Shown in pieces: positions 1-8,427 of a DNA stretch of 33,978 bases. Source of the stretch: Bacteroidota bacterium (lineage in GTDB: Bacteria > Bacteroidota > Bacteroidia > J057 > JAJTIE01). Where the stretch lies: the NCBI GenBank assembly GCA_019638695.1, contig JAHBTG010000030.1:1-33978 (forward strand), written 5' to 3'. The notes beneath the pieces were generated by a model. That model saw only the letters and a list, made by a program, of their open reading frames with translations. It was not told the DNA's origin and ran no database searches. The stretch's first letter is position 1; each line of letters begins with the position of its first letter. Position numbers and translations under genes: made by a program.

Positions 1-178
1 CGGGAACGCCCAGTTCCAGTAATTCCGGCAGGAGTTGTGCCCGCAGCCCGGTGGTCAGCTCATGCTCTGTGCAACCATTTGCCACAGCGCCCGGGTCGTT
101 TACGTGATGGCCGGCCCGCAGGTAGAGGACAGGCTGCTGCATGTGGGGATCGAATTGAGAAAAAAGCTCGGCGAGCAT
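1..178 (-). CDS. N-acetylmuramoyl-L-alanine amidase-like protein, N-terminal part (cut by window edge)
   Basis: The first 59 codons are visible, starting at ATG 178-176 on the minus strand; the rest lies beyond position 1. Residues 19-36 contain LRAGHHVNDPGAVANG, which resembles the opening beta strand and first zinc-ligand histidine (AGH) of the Amidase_3 family, followed by a TEHELTTGLR helix typical of these enzymes. The family cleaves the bond between N-acetylmuramic acid and L-alanine in peptidoglycan. No signal peptide is visible, as expected for a phage-type cytoplasmic endolysin. It follows the capsid-like gene on the same strand after about 120 bp holding a strong hairpin, so a lysis or tail-associated role is inferred from context. 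Only the N-terminus can be judged; the remaining zinc ligands and catalytic glutamate are outside the window. Confidence 0.6.
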   Translation of the reverse strand, partial: MLAELFSQFDPHMQQPVLYLRAGHHVNDPGAVANGCTEHELTTGLRAQLLPELLELGVP

Positions 179-241
179 GGTCTTGTGTCATTTTGTTTGA
201 AGGGTGCTTGTGTAATCCGCGGAACAACCGCCGCCAGGGGT

Positions 242-273
242 GCCCCGCGGCCGGCAAGCGGCCGGCGCGGGGC
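242..273 (-). terminator. GC-rich hairpin between the capsid-like gene and the amidase
   Basis: GCCCCGC (242-248) pairs with GCGGGGC (267-273), and GCCGGC (250-255) pairs with GCCGGC (261-266). G249 is bulged and the loop is AAGCG. This gives a 13-bp, nearly all-GC stem just downstream of the capsid-like stop codon at 301. There is no U-tract on either strand, so it is not a classical intrinsic terminator. It could attenuate transcription into the amidase or stabilise the 3' end of the capsid message. Confidence 0.4.
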
Positions 274-300
274 CGGTTCCCCGGCAGAGGCGGGTATGGC

Positions 301-1179
301 CTAGCTGGTGGCCGTGACGATAGCGCCTATACCCTTGTTGCGGACGGGTAGTGCCAGGAAGCGCTGCTGAAAGCCGATAATATCGCCACGGGCGTCCGGG
401 TCGCGCAGGCGCTCAAACATGTCCAGGCTGCCCACTGCTTTCATCACCTCGTCCTTATGGAAGGCCAGGGCACGGGCATAGCGGTCATTCACCCCAAAAG
501 AGGCGCCATAGGCCTTCTTGGCGGTGCCGCTGTCGTAGAAAGGCAGATTCTCATAGGTATACACCTTGAAACCATAGAGGAAGCCGGGCGTGCTGCCATC
601 GCCATGATTGAACATCTGGTTATACAGTGCACGGTCTTCATTACGCAGGTGTTCCTGCGCCTGGCTATCGAGCAGGAGCACACGCCCTATGCGGGGAATA
701 TGCTGGCTGTCAAACCGCTGGGCGAGATTGGCCACATCGGAATAGGTGATCTGGCGGTGTCCGCCGCTCAGCGTACCGGAGGTTTGCATCACGGGCGTGA
801 GGGACCCGTCTGCCGCAGGGGCATAGGCATGGGCCGCTTCATTGTACTGGCGCAGCAGGAGCGCCTGCTTATGCCCGTAGATAATGCTGGCCATCTTGTC
901 ATAGCTCAGTTCGGCCTGTTCTGCATTGCGCACAATGGTACTCTCCGTGTCATAATAGGCCAGAGTGAGTGTCAGAGCCGTGTCCGTGCGGGTAGAGGCG
1001 GGCACCGGGTAAGTAGTGTTGTTTTTCAGCACCGCGGGGTTGACGCCGGCTTCCGCCAGGTTGATTACGTCATTTTCCACAAAAGTGCTGAGATCCAGGG
1101 CCTCGTTCAGAAAAGTAAATTCCGGATAGAAATTCTCCTTGACGAGCGCAAGCCAGACTTCTTTGTTGAGTCCTGCCAT
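301..1179 (-). CDS. Probable phage major capsid protein
   Basis: A 292-residue protein with an ATG start and TAG stop, no signal peptide and no membrane segment. The N-terminal region (MAGLNKEVW, then VENDVINLAEAGVNPAVL around 33-51) and the middle strands (TLTLAYYDTESTIVRNAEQAELSYDKMASI around 70-100) resemble major capsid proteins annotated in Bacteroidota prophages. In those, strand-rich segments alternate with a YDK-type helix, and a late segment (here FGVNDRYARALAFHKDEVM) leads to the C-terminus. Its length is normal for a capsid subunit. The identification rests partly on context: a ClpP-type head maturation protease ends 55 bp upstream and an amidase follows. No scaffolding, portal or terminase gene is visible. 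It may equally be a domesticated shell-forming protein; a profile or structure search would decide. Confidence 0.55.
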   Translation of the reverse strand: MAGLNKEVWLALVKENFYPEFTFLNEALDLSTFVENDVINLAEAGVNPAVLKNNTTYPVPASTRTDTALTLTLAYYDTESTIVRNAEQAELSYDKMASIIYGHKQALLLRQYNEAAHAYAPAADGSLTPVMQTSGTLSGGHRQITYSDVANLAQRFDSQHIPRIGRVLLLDSQAQEHLRNEDRALYNQMFNHGDGSTPGFLYGFKVYTYENLPFYDSGTAKKAYGASFGVNDRYARALAFHKDEVMKAVGSLDMFERLRDPDARGDIIGFQQRFLALPVRNKGIGAIVTATS

Positions 1180-1234
1180 AAGAATAAATTGTTTGGGTGA
1201 ATGAATACGGAAAAGAAAGAAACACGGTGCGGGC

Positions 1235-1951
1235 TTATGCCTTCACACGATCCAGTAATGCCCGGAAGCGTTCGGGTTCCTGGGCCTTGAGCCGCGCCAA
1301 TCCCTGGGGATCCTGGCGGGCCCATTGCAGGTAATCCCAGCCTGCACGGGCATCCGTAGCCCGGGGGAGCAGAGCCGCCAGCCGCTGAGGGGCAGGCCGC
1401 TCTTCAGTAGGGTAAAATGCCGCCATCTGCAACTGCAGCACCTCGTCTACAAAACCCAGCTCGTGGGCACGGGAAGCAGAAAGCCATTTCTCCTCGCGAA
1501 GTAATTGCAGCATATCCTCCGCAGACATGCCCGTGCGGGCCGTATACAACTGCACAAACTGCTGCTCCAGCTCCTCGGAGATCTGAGCGGCATCCCTCAG
1601 CTGGTCGCTGCGACCCGTAGCGGTGGTGATGGGCAAATGAACCATCCACTCTGCCAGGGCATCCATCACGACACGGTCGCAGCTGAGTGCAATGAGCGTG
1701 GCCATACTGGCGCAGGCCCCTACCACATAGGCTGTCTTGGGCGCAGGGTGCTGCCGCAACGCCACAGCGATGGCATTGCCCACCGGCACACTGCCGCCTC
1801 CGGAATTGATATACACTTCTATGCGCTCTGCCTGGGGCAGCGCATCCAGTTGCCGGGTAACGGAAGCTTCCGTCACCTCTTCTCCCAGGTAGCCCGTGAT
1901 GCGAATACGGAGCGTCCCGGCTTGATTGGTTATTTGTAAGGGCTTGAACAT
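1235..1951 (-). CDS. ClpP-like phage head maturation protease
   Basis: 238 residues from ATG at 1951. A longer reading back to 1987 would add MRWKKIPFSFAS, but the ATG at 1951 fits the family start and has a promoter-like box just upstream. It carries the Clp serine-protease layout: INSGGGSVPVGNAIA at about 49-62 (oxyanion glycines), nucleophile Ser82 in GACASMATL, His105 in WMVHLP, and AHELGFVDEV near residue 170. ClpP/SppA-fold proteases of this kind process capsid and scaffold proteins during phage head assembly. Cellular ClpP has the same active-site spacing, but is about 200 residues and more strongly conserved (MIHQP). Here the neighbouring capsid-like gene and the 45-residue basic C-terminal extension favour the phage role. 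Likely cotranscribed with the capsid gene (55 bp gap). Confidence 0.82.
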   Translation of the reverse strand: MFKPLQITNQAGTLRIRITGYLGEEVTEASVTRQLDALPQAERIEVYINSGGGSVPVGNAIAVALRQHPAPKTAYVVGACASMATLIALSCDRVVMDALAEWMVHLPITTATGRSDQLRDAAQISEELEQQFVQLYTARTGMSAEDMLQLLREEKWLSASRAHELGFVDEVLQLQMAAFYPTEERPAPQRLAALLPRATDARAGWDYLQWARQDPQGLARLKAQEPERFRALLDRVKA

Positions 1952-2109: not shown

Positions 2110-2814
2110 TCAACGCCCACTCACAACAATCCGCAGGAAGTTAACGGACTCGGTGAACAATACGCGCAGCCCCAGCTTGCGAAAGGTGACCTGCGGACGC
2201 AACGTAACGGGTACGGCCTGCACCTGCAAACCCGGCCGGCCGGCCACCCGGTAGATAAACTCCAGGTCAAAGAGATAACGACGAATGCGGGTGTGTAGAA
2301 ACAGGGGACGCGCGCCCGGAGAAAATCCTTTGAGACCCGCCTGGGTGTCCGTCACGGGCAAGCGCAATACCCTGCGCAGCACCCACCGGAACGTGCGCGA
2401 CAAGACCCGCCGGAAACCCGGCACCTGGGCATAGTAGCCTGTATGGCGCACGCCTATGGCGACATCTGTCCCACACAGCAGGGTATCCAGCACGGCAAGC
2501 ATGCTTGCTTCGGTATAGGGAAAATCGATATCTGTATACAGGTAATACTGGGCATCCAGCACGGCGACTCCGGCCCGTAGTGCAAAACCTTTGCCGCGAT
2601 TAGGGGCATGGCTCACATACTGCATACCGGGCAAACGCTGGCGCAGGAAATCCAGGTCGGCAGCAGTCACTCCATGTGTACTGCCGTCATTGACCAGGAC
2701 CACCTGCAGATTTACCCGGGGCCGGGCAGCCTGCAATGTGTGTATGGCAGCAGCTACCCGCTGCGACCAATCTGGCGGGGGATTGTAACAGGGAAGCACC
2801 AGGGCCACATGCAT
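2110..2814 (-). CDS. GT2-family glycosyltransferase (dolichyl-phosphate-mannose-synthase-like)
   Basis: 234 residues from ATG 2814, the first Met directly before the GT-A opening strand. The motifs in order are LPCYNPP (7-13), LVNDGST (40-46), the RGKGFALRAG loop (73-82), the metal-binding YTDIDFPY with D95 and D97, and DTQAGLKGF at 156-164. This set is typical of the DPM1/DPG-like branch of GT2, which transfers a sugar from a nucleotide donor to a polyprenyl phosphate at the inner face of the membrane. There is no C-terminal membrane segment, so it is a soluble or peripheral form. It is divergent from a membrane protein starting 36 bp away, a pairing that suggests joint work on a lipid-linked sugar, though this is inferred. 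Sugar specificity cannot be read. Confidence 0.85.
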   Translation of the reverse strand: MHVALVLPCYNPPPDWSQRVAAAIHTLQAARPRVNLQVVLVNDGSTHGVTAADLDFLRQRLPGMQYVSHAPNRGKGFALRAGVAVLDAQYYLYTDIDFPYTEASMLAVLDTLLCGTDVAIGVRHTGYYAQVPGFRRVLSRTFRWVLRRVLRLPVTDTQAGLKGFSPGARPLFLHTRIRRYLFDLEFIYRVAGRPGLQVQAVPVTLRPQVTFRKLGLRVLFTESVNFLRIVVSGR

Positions 2815-2850
2815 GTCTTCAGATGTGTATATTGGGACCTGTATTTTGCA

Positions 2851-4458
2851 ATGGCCGGTCCGTCCGGTCATTCTTCCCGGCCAAAAGTAGACAAATTCGT
2901 GGCAAAGACGCGCATCCGGCCTGCCTGGCAAACAGAGATCCTGTTCTCCCTGCTGTGCGTACTGACCTATACACTGCTGCAAGGGTATATCGTGGGACTG
3001 GAGGATCAACTGGACTACCTGCCCTACAGTCTGTATCTTTCCCAGCCAGACTTATATTCACAGGATCTGTTTATCCAGACGCTGGCCAGCCAACCGGTGC
3101 ATGAACGAACCGTATCCGCCGGGCTCGTCAGCCTGTTTGCGCCGCATCTGGAGGCTGCCATGCTGGGCCTGCACCTGCTCACAGCCTGTGCACTGGCCTG
3201 GGGGCTACTACGGGTGGCGCAGCAATACCTGGGAGTTAACTGGCGCGCCTATCTCACGGTACTATTCACCTTTACGGCCTTACAATATGTCTACTGGGAT
3301 GCAACGGAATTGCTGTACAACAACTGGCAGGGGGACACCGTAGCCATGACCTGCGGCGTGTGGGCCTTATGGCTGGCAGACCGACGGCAATATTTACGGG
3401 CTGCGGGATTACTGGCACTGGGCACACTGTTTCACCCATTAGTGGGGCTCTTGTGGGCAATCTGGCTGGGGCTGGCCCTACTGGTCACACATCGGCAGTA
3501 CCCGTGGCGCAGCGTGATGGCAGCGGGCATATTCTATTTCTTACTGGCAGGCTGGTACATAGCTTTATTGCTGTATTCCAAACAAACGGGCGCACCTCCT
3601 GACCCTGACCATTTTGCCAGGTACTATGTATTCAGGGCCCCTCATCATTTTATGCCGGACAGCTTCAGCCGGAAAGGCTGGATACTGCTGGCCATGTTTA
3701 TTCCGCTGGGTATATGGCGATTACGAGGTATGCCACGGGCGCTTATCCTGTGCTTTATGGTCATTGCCTGCCTGTATGCCTTATGTGTGGGGCTCTTACG
3801 CCACCCCGCCATCGTTCCCCTGCAATGGTACCGGCTCAGCCCCGTGGTCGAATTCCTGGGAGCAATAGCCGCCGCCAGCCTGTTGCCGGCAGCATTACCC
3901 CTAAAGGTCAGCCGGATACTCCGGCACAAAGGGATATGGACGGGAACCGGCCTACTGCTCATGGTCCTGCTGGCCTGGTGGCCTGCACATACACCCAGGC
4001 CCTATCACTATCACCCGGGCAACCTGGCCACACACCCGGAGGTGGTCCTGGGCCGGGTCATGCGCCAGAAGCTCCCGGCAGAGGCCCTGGTATTACACCC
4101 CTTGCGTTTTGGAGGCCACAAGTATTTCGGAGGGTGCAGCAGTTACCTGGAATACAAGTCTATTCCCCGCACGCAAGCAGCTTTCCGCACCTGGTATGAG
4201 CGGCTGAGCCGTATCTACGGCAAGGAAGCGCTCAACCACCCCGACTTTTGGGAACAGGCAGACAGCCTGTACCCGGCCAGGATACCTGCCCTACAAGACT
4301 CGCTTCCGACATGGGGGATTACACATGTCATAATGCCTGCAGGGCAGGCGCTGTCTTTACCCAAAGTATGGGAAACCCCGCATTACGTACTGTACACGGT
4401 ACCGTCTGTCATCAAAAAAGGGGAGCCTGTGCTCCCCTCTTCCTGGTTTTCTGAATAA
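2851..4458 (+). CDS. Polytopic membrane protein, unknown function (possibly DUF6798-like)
   Basis: 535 residues from ATG 2851, with about ten hydrophobic segments. The first (SLLCVLTYTLLQGYIVG) comes about 30 residues in and the last (TGLLLMVLLAWW) around residue 365. It is followed by a roughly 160-residue C-terminal extracytoplasmic domain. Recognisable spots are DQLDYLPY after the first membrane segment and GTLFHPLVGL in the middle; the arrangement recalls GT-C-fold or DUF6798 proteins, but I do not identify it firmly. Other possible starts are GTG 2899 (VAKTRIRPAW) and in-frame codons upstream of 2851. A TATTTTG box at 2842-2848 sits so close to ATG 2851 that GTG 2899 must be considered. 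The C-terminus overlaps a terminator hairpin for the facing gene. Divergent from a GT2 transferase, so a lipid-linked glycan role is plausible but unproven. Confidence 0.75.
   Translation: MAGPSGHSSRPKVDKFVAKTRIRPAWQTEILFSLLCVLTYTLLQGYIVGLEDQLDYLPYSLYLSQPDLYSQDLFIQTLASQPVHERTVSAGLVSLFAPHLEAAMLGLHLLTACALAWGLLRVAQQYLGVNWRAYLTVLFTFTALQYVYWDATELLYNNWQGDTVAMTCGVWALWLADRRQYLRAAGLLALGTLFHPLVGLLWAIWLGLALLVTHRQYPWRSVMAAGIFYFLLAGWYIALLLYSKQTGAPPDPDHFARYYVFRAPHHFMPDSFSRKGWILLAMFIPLGIWRLRGMPRALILCFMVIACLYALCVGLLRHPAIVPLQWYRLSPVVEFLGAIAAASLLPAALPLKVSRILRHKGIWTGTGLLLMVLLAWWPAHTPRPYHYHPGNLATHPEVVLGRVMRQKLPAEALVLHPLRFGGHKYFGGCSSYLEYKSIPRTQAAFRTWYERLSRIYGKEALNHPDFWEQADSLYPARIPALQDSLPTWGITHVIMPAGQALSLPKVWETPHYVLYTVPSVIKKGEPVLPSSWFSE
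2882..2889 (-). promoter_or_regulatory. -7 promoter box for the GT2 gene
   Basis: The minus strand reads TACTTTTG, an exact match to the Bacteroidota TAnnTTTG element, about 67 nt upstream of the GT2 start codon at 2814. It lies inside the 5' end of the divergent membrane-protein reading frame, which is one reason to doubt that gene's ATG 2851 start. Confidence 0.45.
4414..4437 (-). terminator. Intrinsic terminator for the TerB-like gene, inside the facing coding region
   Basis: GGGGAGC (4420-4426), loop CTGT, GCTCCCC (4431-4437), preceded on plus by six A residues (4414-4419). Read on minus this is a 7-bp GC stem followed by a run of six U, the classical Rho-independent form. It serves the minus gene whose stop is at 4472. 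It also encodes residues close to the C-terminus of the plus-strand membrane protein, whose stop is at 4456-4458. Confidence 0.8.
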
Positions 4459-7302: not shown

Positions 7303-8427
7303 ATGCAGAAGATAATACAGCCCTCCGTATTCCTGGCTTACCTTTGGCTATGGGCCCTGTATATGGCAGGTCCTGCCCAAGCGCAAAACACCCCACAGTT
7401 TATGGTTGCCTACCAAACCGAGCAGGGATGGTATGTATTCAATACCCGCGGAGACTCCTTGCTGTCTCCCGGTATGCTGGGGCTTACCGGCCCGGTACAA
7501 GGGCCTGCCTTTGGCTTTATCTGTATCCGGCAACTACACAGGCTGGACCCCCAAACACTGATGCCGGAAACACACCAGATCCTGATGGACGCCACGGGCA
7601 AACGCTATATGGAGAACCTGAGCGTGGATGAGCGCATCCGTTTTATTATCGAAGGCCGTTATGTGGGCACAGAGCACCAGAAGAATGGAGCCAATACGGT
7701 ATATGATATGACCACCGGCAAAGTGACCATACCCGGTGAGTATGTGAGTGCAGGCCCCGCGCACGGGGGGCTTATCTTCCTCAACGGCCTGGCAGAAAGC
7801 AACGATGATGCAGAAAACCACACTTGGCTAGCAGTGGACTACCGCACTGGCAAAAAACGTTATACGCTGACGGATGTCTCTTACCTGGAAAAGACAGAGG
7901 ACGGCCTACTGCTAGCCCACAAAGAGGATGATAGTGTATGGCAAGTAGATGCCGCCGGCAAGCTCAAACCCTACAAGGAGGAATCATCCGGGGAATACCT
8001 GGAAACGGAGGACACCTTACCAACGGAACCGTTTGAGGTAGAGAGCAACCCGCAGGGACTTACCGTAAAGGATGCCAAAGGCAAAGTACTGGTGCGTAAC
8101 CTGGATGCCGAAATGGTGGACTACGTTTGCCGGGGATTTGTGGCCTATGCCAAGAACGAAAATATGGGACTGTTTCGCATCAGCGACCAGAAGCACCTGA
8201 TTACTCCTGCGGCAGGATACTCAGAGATCTATGTGTACCCCACCTTCCTGGAGGCCTTTGGCAGTCAAAACGATACCCGCCGGCTGGTGTTAATGAAACC
8301 GGACGGCGCACCTCATCATACGCCCGGACTGGATACTGCCTATTACTTTATGAGCCTGCAGGCGCAAGACTGTGATACGAATACTCCTGCGCCGCCCGCT
8401 ACCGTGCAGTATTTTATTCCCCGGTAA
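7303..8427 (+). CDS. Secreted protein with WG-repeat-like character, unknown function
   Basis: 374 residues with a clear signal peptide (MQKIIQPSVFLAYLWLWALY, cleavage after AQA near residue 28). The mature part is strand-rich. It contains spaced phrases such as QGWYVFNTRGDSLL, YDMTTGKVTIPGEY, VDYRTGKKRYTL, MGLFRISDQKHLITP and LVLMKPDG, which recall degenerate WG/KWG repeats or a beta-propeller-like fold. It has no C-terminal sorting domain and no lipobox, so a periplasmic location is likely. It follows the 5996 membrane-protein gene by 53 bp without an exact promoter box and may be cotranscribed. It ends 8 bp before the stop of the convergent glmS. Family assignment is tentative. Confidence 0.7.
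   Translation: MQKIIQPSVFLAYLWLWALYMAGPAQAQNTPQFMVAYQTEQGWYVFNTRGDSLLSPGMLGLTGPVQGPAFGFICIRQLHRLDPQTLMPETHQILMDATGKRYMENLSVDERIRFIIEGRYVGTEHQKNGANTVYDMTTGKVTIPGEYVSAGPAHGGLIFLNGLAESNDDAENHTWLAVDYRTGKKRYTLTDVSYLEKTEDGLLLAHKEDDSVWQVDAAGKLKPYKEESSGEYLETEDTLPTEPFEVESNPQGLTVKDAKGKVLVRNLDAEMVDYVCRGFVAYAKNENMGLFRISDQKHLITPAAGYSEIYVYPTFLEAFGSQNDTRRLVLMKPDGAPHHTPGLDTAYYFMSLQAQDCDTNTPAPPATVQYFIPR

Follow-up and report, generated by a model that had tools for sequence, protein, structure and literature searches.

A 33,978-bp window, comprising the entire contig C71 of a draft Bacteroidota assembly (G000, 2.94 Mb in 146 contigs), appears to carry the edge of a phage-derived element that has been domesticated, is passed on vertically and functions in the manner of a gene transfer agent (GTA), a reading to which we assign a probability of about 0.6. 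By sequence, the element combines a Mu-type head and packaging module (TerS-like ORF, TerL, portal, gp36 adaptor, ClpP-type protease and HK97-fold capsid) with a short siphovirus-like tail and a holin and amidase, distributed over two chromosomal loci. The gene set occurs once each in both genomes of the family examined, G000 and its sister genome G001, which belongs to another genus; the explanation rests on these two genomes, both draft assemblies.

Head genes at the end of the window

Three co-directional genes, running right to left, lie at the left end of the window, as described in the sequence-only reading. The first, on the minus strand at positions 1235–1951, encodes a 238-aa ClpP-type prohead protease (PHROG 94, head maturation protease, E = 3.5e-50; Pfam CLP_protease, E = 1.9e-25), in which the active-site residues named earlier were located, Ser82 within GACASMAT and His105 within MVHLP. 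It is followed on the same strand by a 292-aa major capsid protein (301–1179; PHROG 267, major head protein, E = 3e-24), previously called a probable capsid, and by the N-terminal 59 aa of an N-acetylmuramoyl-L-alanine amidase, or endolysin (2–178, minus strand), which is cut by the contig end and continues on contig C8. The matches of the amidase fragment itself are weak (Pfam, 0.025; PHROG endolysin, 2e-4), and the remainder on C8 matches Amidase_3 (3.9e-7), in agreement with the original assignment. The protease is the first gene of locus 1, and chromosomal genes start right after it, as had been claimed: a family 2 glycosyltransferase (2110–3009, minus strand), outside the element on its chromosomal flank, ends 159 bp from the protease start. 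The reported absence of terminase, portal and tail genes from the chromosomal side holds for the window, and such genes are present in the same genome on C8, C132 and C30. The window also encodes a T9SS sorting domain which, together with a weak match to BamH, assigns it to Bacteroidota.

The window protease carries a C-terminal W-x-Y-x-x-W-x-x-x-D-P-x-G-L motif. The scaffold middle of the proteases of its phage relatives (130–150 aa) is missing, with the active site and the last 35 residues retained. In three phages (L008:7620–8519, L010:8805–9839 and L041:17171–18160), a different prohead-protease domain has apparently been substituted for the ClpP-type one, and in L008 and L010 the scaffold region or C-terminal motif still continues despite the apparent swap.

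The capsid belongs to the family found in Mu-like Bacteroidota phages (PHROG 267), and its start coincides with the end of a longer N-terminal segment in these relatives. A structural model (pLDDT 80) matched a cyanophage capsid (Foldseek E = 2.6e-11) and the capsid of phage LME-1 (Z = 16.6) and, almost as well, encapsulins (Z = 13–15); the capsid of the cf-PICI EcCI2 likewise matches the fold. The comparison of this protein with HK97 capsids and encapsulins that had been proposed thus gave a predicted capsid fold resembling both, and since the encapsulin scores lie near those of phage capsids, the fold by itself cannot decide between them. Capsid ORFs of relatives (L007, L008, L010, L012 and L020) carry an N-terminal hydrophobic segment of 45–50 aa, which is absent from the window capsid and from the Porphyromonas phage capsid.

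A two-locus gene set in two genera

The remainder of the set was found by protein and profile searches of the other contigs of G000. Contig C8 (6,399 bp) begins within the amidase. Then follow a holin, a lipoprotein-like ORF of 149 aa, a protein of 296 aa at the position of the major tail protein, another of 224 aa, a tape measure of 365 aa and the larger part of a tail-tip protein. C132 begins with the end of the tail-tip protein, fused to a Laminin_G_3 domain, followed by a 99-aa ORF and a 444-aa protein; its middle holds genes for an ABC transporter, a Cys/Met PLP enzyme and a TPR protein on the other strand, and it ends with a second, TerS-like 99-aa ORF (8081–8380) and TerL. C30 contains the end of TerL, gp36, the Mu portal and a convergent glutamine synthetase. 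The contig order C71–C8–C132–C30 was derived from genes split at contig ends, with gaps of about 7, 50 and 20 residues, and the sequences were not joined. Locus 1 thus spans C71–C8–C132 and locus 2 (TerS-like ORF, TerL, gp36 and portal) spans C132–C30, with about 5 kb of host genes separating the tail genes from the TerS-like ORF. Profile matches were obtained for the Mu-type portal (PF06074, 2e-70), TerL (PHROG 38, 1.6e-51) and gp36 (PF07030, 1.6e-6). TerL retains its Walker and nuclease motifs, TerL and portal genes of this type occur once per genome, and no gene of the set is broken in either genome apart from contig-end cuts.

Comparison with the related genome, as had been suggested, showed the same set intact in G001, again in two loci. 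Locus 1 is unbroken on C28 (approximately 6.1–16.1 kb of 61 kb), with housekeeping genes on either side, and locus 2 (a 96-aa ORF, TerL, gp36 and portal) lies on C39 (14.6–18.1 kb of 55.8 kb) beside an LptC-like gene and other housekeeping genes. The window at 8.4–19.7 kb is syntenic with C39 at 34–45 kb, indicating that the chromosome stretches match and that the phage loci occupy different spots. The split over two contigs in G001 could be a misassembly.

These findings separate the two interpretations offered by the sequence-only reading. The search beyond the contig end did recover the terminase, portal and tail genes, in two loci rather than as a complete prophage. An ordinary prophage edge is further disfavoured by the lack of transposition genes adjoining either locus, and because locus 1 on C28 lies in a housekeeping context on both sides, a plain edge was rejected. 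The other proposal, a small domesticated shell or GTA-like locus, is supported in its GTA form and not favoured in its shell-only, encapsulin-like form, since TerL, portal, head adaptor, tail, holin and endolysin genes are all part of the set.

The Laminin_G_3 domain, a lectin-like C-terminal part of the G000 tail-tip protein (L060:3–1190), is absent from the G001 copy and is possibly a cell-surface binding part. Homologues of the 224-aa tail protein were also seen standing alone among housekeeping genes, away from phage genes (L089:10794–11465 and L088:653–1288), in G002, near a gyrB-like gene, and in G007.

Both loci begin with the same kind of start. A leaderless promoter-like element, TTCCTTTG-N5, occupies positions 1952–1964 of the window (minus strand), immediately 5' of the protease ATG, and the form TTCCTTTG-N4/5-ATG opens each of the two loci in G000 and in G001 (4/4 sites), with no further site in the initial scan of 339 kb of strand. 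The pattern was picked after three of the four sites had been seen, leaving the G001 protease site as the independent one. In a wider scan (2.15 Mb, about 79% of G001), TAnnTTTG-N3-6-ATG was found at about 110 genes, and TTCCTTTG at three open-frame genes, namely the two loci and an mtnA-like gene. TAnnTTTG is the Bacteroidota -7 element, here positioned as for leaderless mRNAs. As a rare variant of this common element, TTCCTTTG weighs less as evidence; it supports the view that the loci are transcription units starting exactly at the protease and the TerS-like ORF, and hints at their joint control. Leaderless mRNAs are probably common in the lineage of G001 (for example, L141, L207 and L142).

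Descent, shared losses and alternative explanations

For the capsid, TerL, gp36 and portal, relatives are found in Bacteroidota as transposable prophages of the Mu-like kind, in which the TerL-gp36-portal-neck block is divergent from the protease and directly adjoins it. In TerL and capsid trees, G000 and G001 formed a fully supported clade (100/100 and 100/99) among the Mu-like phages, on a stem of 1.05 (TerL) and 0.42 (capsid) changes per column. The tail parts resemble those of siphovirus-like elements in G002, a genome of the same taxonomic order, so that the element combines a Mu-type head with a tail of a different kind. Siphovirus-like elements or remnants in G002 (L067, L066, L065 and L068) have a different head together with related tail-tip, 319-aa and 221-aa proteins. 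Beyond the family, the order (22-genome set) yielded such a TerL only in G011 and G019. No further member of the type was detected by a capsid search of 395 class members or by searching the 22 genomes of the order with the tail protein and TerL; the other capsid matches in the class are 22–39% identical, and some of their neighbourhoods were read. Among 2.9 million viral contigs, in a search that reaches close relatives only, capsid identity never exceeded 49% and TerL and the 224-aa protein had no relative; the latter was also unmatched in phages.

Three features appear to be derived losses shared by the two genera: a TerS-like ORF lacking the helix-turn-helix (HTH), a protease lacking its scaffold middle, and a halved tape measure (363/365 aa versus 630–750 aa in relatives). 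The ORF in the TerS place (99 aa in G000, 96 aa in G001) aligns solely with the part of the relatives' TerS that follows the HTH (from position 57; probability 75). It matched no HTH family in either genome, and all eight phage relatives scanned gave an HTH or terminase-small family match near the N-terminus. By hmmsearch the G000 ORF was the best of 475 (E = 0.014), and that of G001 was not significant (E = 4); identification as TerS is weak, the homology being convincing from its place and only moderate from its score. A concatenated query found no gpF, gpG, tail completion, MuB or Gam gene in G000 or G001, with positive controls for gpF, gpG and MuB. The gpG family (PF05069), a feature of the head module of Mu-like prophages, was absent from both genomes and present in three Mu-like controls (G011, G019 and G072), and the portal and gp36 are of the type found in such prophages, to whose TerL that of the element is related. 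No MuA lies beside either locus; the genome-wide test for it was weak, the concatenated query matching only its own source, and a PF09299 search was uninformative because the controls also fell below the cut-off.

The phage-derived genes appear to have diverged like housekeeping genes. Between G000 and G001 their dN/dS was 0.15–0.43 and dS 0.8–2.8, compared with 0.08–0.35 and 1.35–2.5 for eight neighbouring host genes, all these values being rough because synonymous sites are near saturation. Their GC3 is similar to that of the host, and the capsid is 75% identical, compared with 73% for GyrA and 74% for GlnA. The tail genes are 34–43% identical and have drifted faster than the head genes. Motifs of the capsid, protease, TerL and portal are kept across this genus-level divergence.

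The main rival to the GTA-like reading, which we consider unlikely, is an old defective Mu-like prophage of the family ancestor, stripped of its early genes, broken apart by rearrangement and now decaying. The relatives are indeed Mu-like prophages that share its gene order, the failure to find gpF, gpG and tail completion genes fits a defective phage, and domesticated elements themselves start as defective prophages. Decay is difficult to reconcile, however, with unbroken genes and conserved motifs in both genomes, with dN/dS within the host-gene range, with domain-precise deletions in the protease and TerS common to both genera, and with matching starts kept at both loci. Two related but separate recent infections by a small phage whose genome is split or unusual, that is, a living prophage, form the least probable reading, a very unlikely one: the intact appearance of the holin, amidase, portal and TerL and the siphovirus-like tail parts would suit it, but replication and transposition genes were not seen, the viral contigs yielded no close relative, and synonymous divergence equals that of host genes.

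A domesticated particle with a purpose other than DNA transfer, such as a satellite-like capsid provider or a killing particle, is very unlikely. The short tail, the failure to find connector gpG and tail completion genes, and a capsid fold shared with encapsulins and the cf-PICI capsid point in that direction; TerL with its Walker and nuclease motifs, gp36 and the Mu portal, which a shell or tailocin would not need, have nevertheless been kept. A capsid-forming PICI would normally carry an integrase and be free of tail genes, and such a satellite is disfavoured by the tail genes and by the absence of an adjacent integrase. An encapsulin was rejected on gene content: the HK97 shell fold is present, as it is in phage capsids, but an encapsulin shell gene stands without phage morphogenesis genes in its operon, and here the capsid gene comes with protease, TerL, portal, tail and lysis genes in one set.

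Proposed function and comparison with known systems

In the GTA-like reading, both loci would be transcribed under some condition from their matching leaderless starts, and a small head would assemble on the shortened scaffold. The terminase, its small subunit lacking the DNA-binding HTH, would load host DNA without sequence choice; the holin and amidase would lyse the cell, and short-tailed particles would carry the DNA to kin. GTAs have been defined by tailed-phage proteins, a fully endogenised genome, often in multiple loci, mostly vertical inheritance with host co-diversification, packaging of mostly random host DNA, a particle too small for its own genome, and delivery of DNA to other cells (Kogay et al. 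2022, PMC9662315). Descent from tailed phages was found, as was endogenisation, with two loci inside housekeeping genes in both draft genomes; with these two of the six features, we file the element not as a GTA but as one that most likely works like one. Vertical inheritance was addressed in two genomes only, by the host-like divergence and the fully supported TerL and capsid clade. The loss of the HTH is consistent with packaging of mostly random host DNA, and the short tape measure and scaffold give only a hint of small particles. We put at even odds the stronger claim of a functional Bacteroidota GTA, independently domesticated, with a Mu-type head, a siphovirus-like tail and an HTH loss from TerS parallel to that in RcGTA, for which this loss was proposed as a hallmark of GTA-type TerS (PMC6854486).

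Recent papers describe GTAs from Alphaproteobacteria, Desulfovibrio, Brachyspira and Methanococcus and a Faecalibacterium candidate (PMC12946183; PMC9662315), and none from Bacteroidota was found in the GTA literature searched. If true, independent descent from a transposable phage would reveal what a phage has to lose before it can serve its host as a DNA-sharing organ, and with HTH loss occurring in parallel this idea would become testable.

Like RcGTA, the alphaproteobacterial type I GTA, the element is a defective-phage gene set fixed in the chromosome at several loci (about 15 kb in total), with an HK97-fold capsid, a TerS without HTH, a siphovirus-like tail and lysis genes. It differs in its phage ancestor, with a Mu-type TerL, a PF06074 portal, gp36 and a ClpP-type protease, in the placement of head-tail and packaging genes in two separate loci, in its Bacteroidota host and in being known from genes alone. 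Porphyromonas phage010a and the Mu-like Winogradskyella phage Peternella_1 have homologous capsid, TerL, gp36 and portal, and Mu-like Bacteroidota phages share the protease-capsid-endolysin order and, in most, the protease C-terminal motif. In contrast, these phages have MuA, MuB and other early genes and a TerL-portal-neck block divergent from and adjoining the protease; their TerS contains an HTH, their scaffold is long and their tape measures exceed that of the element in length. Encapsulins share the HK97 fold and lack terminase, portal, protease and tail. Brachyspira VSH-1 and Bartonella BaGTA likewise arose when a bacterial lineage domesticated a tailed phage on its own, in other hosts and from other gene stocks.
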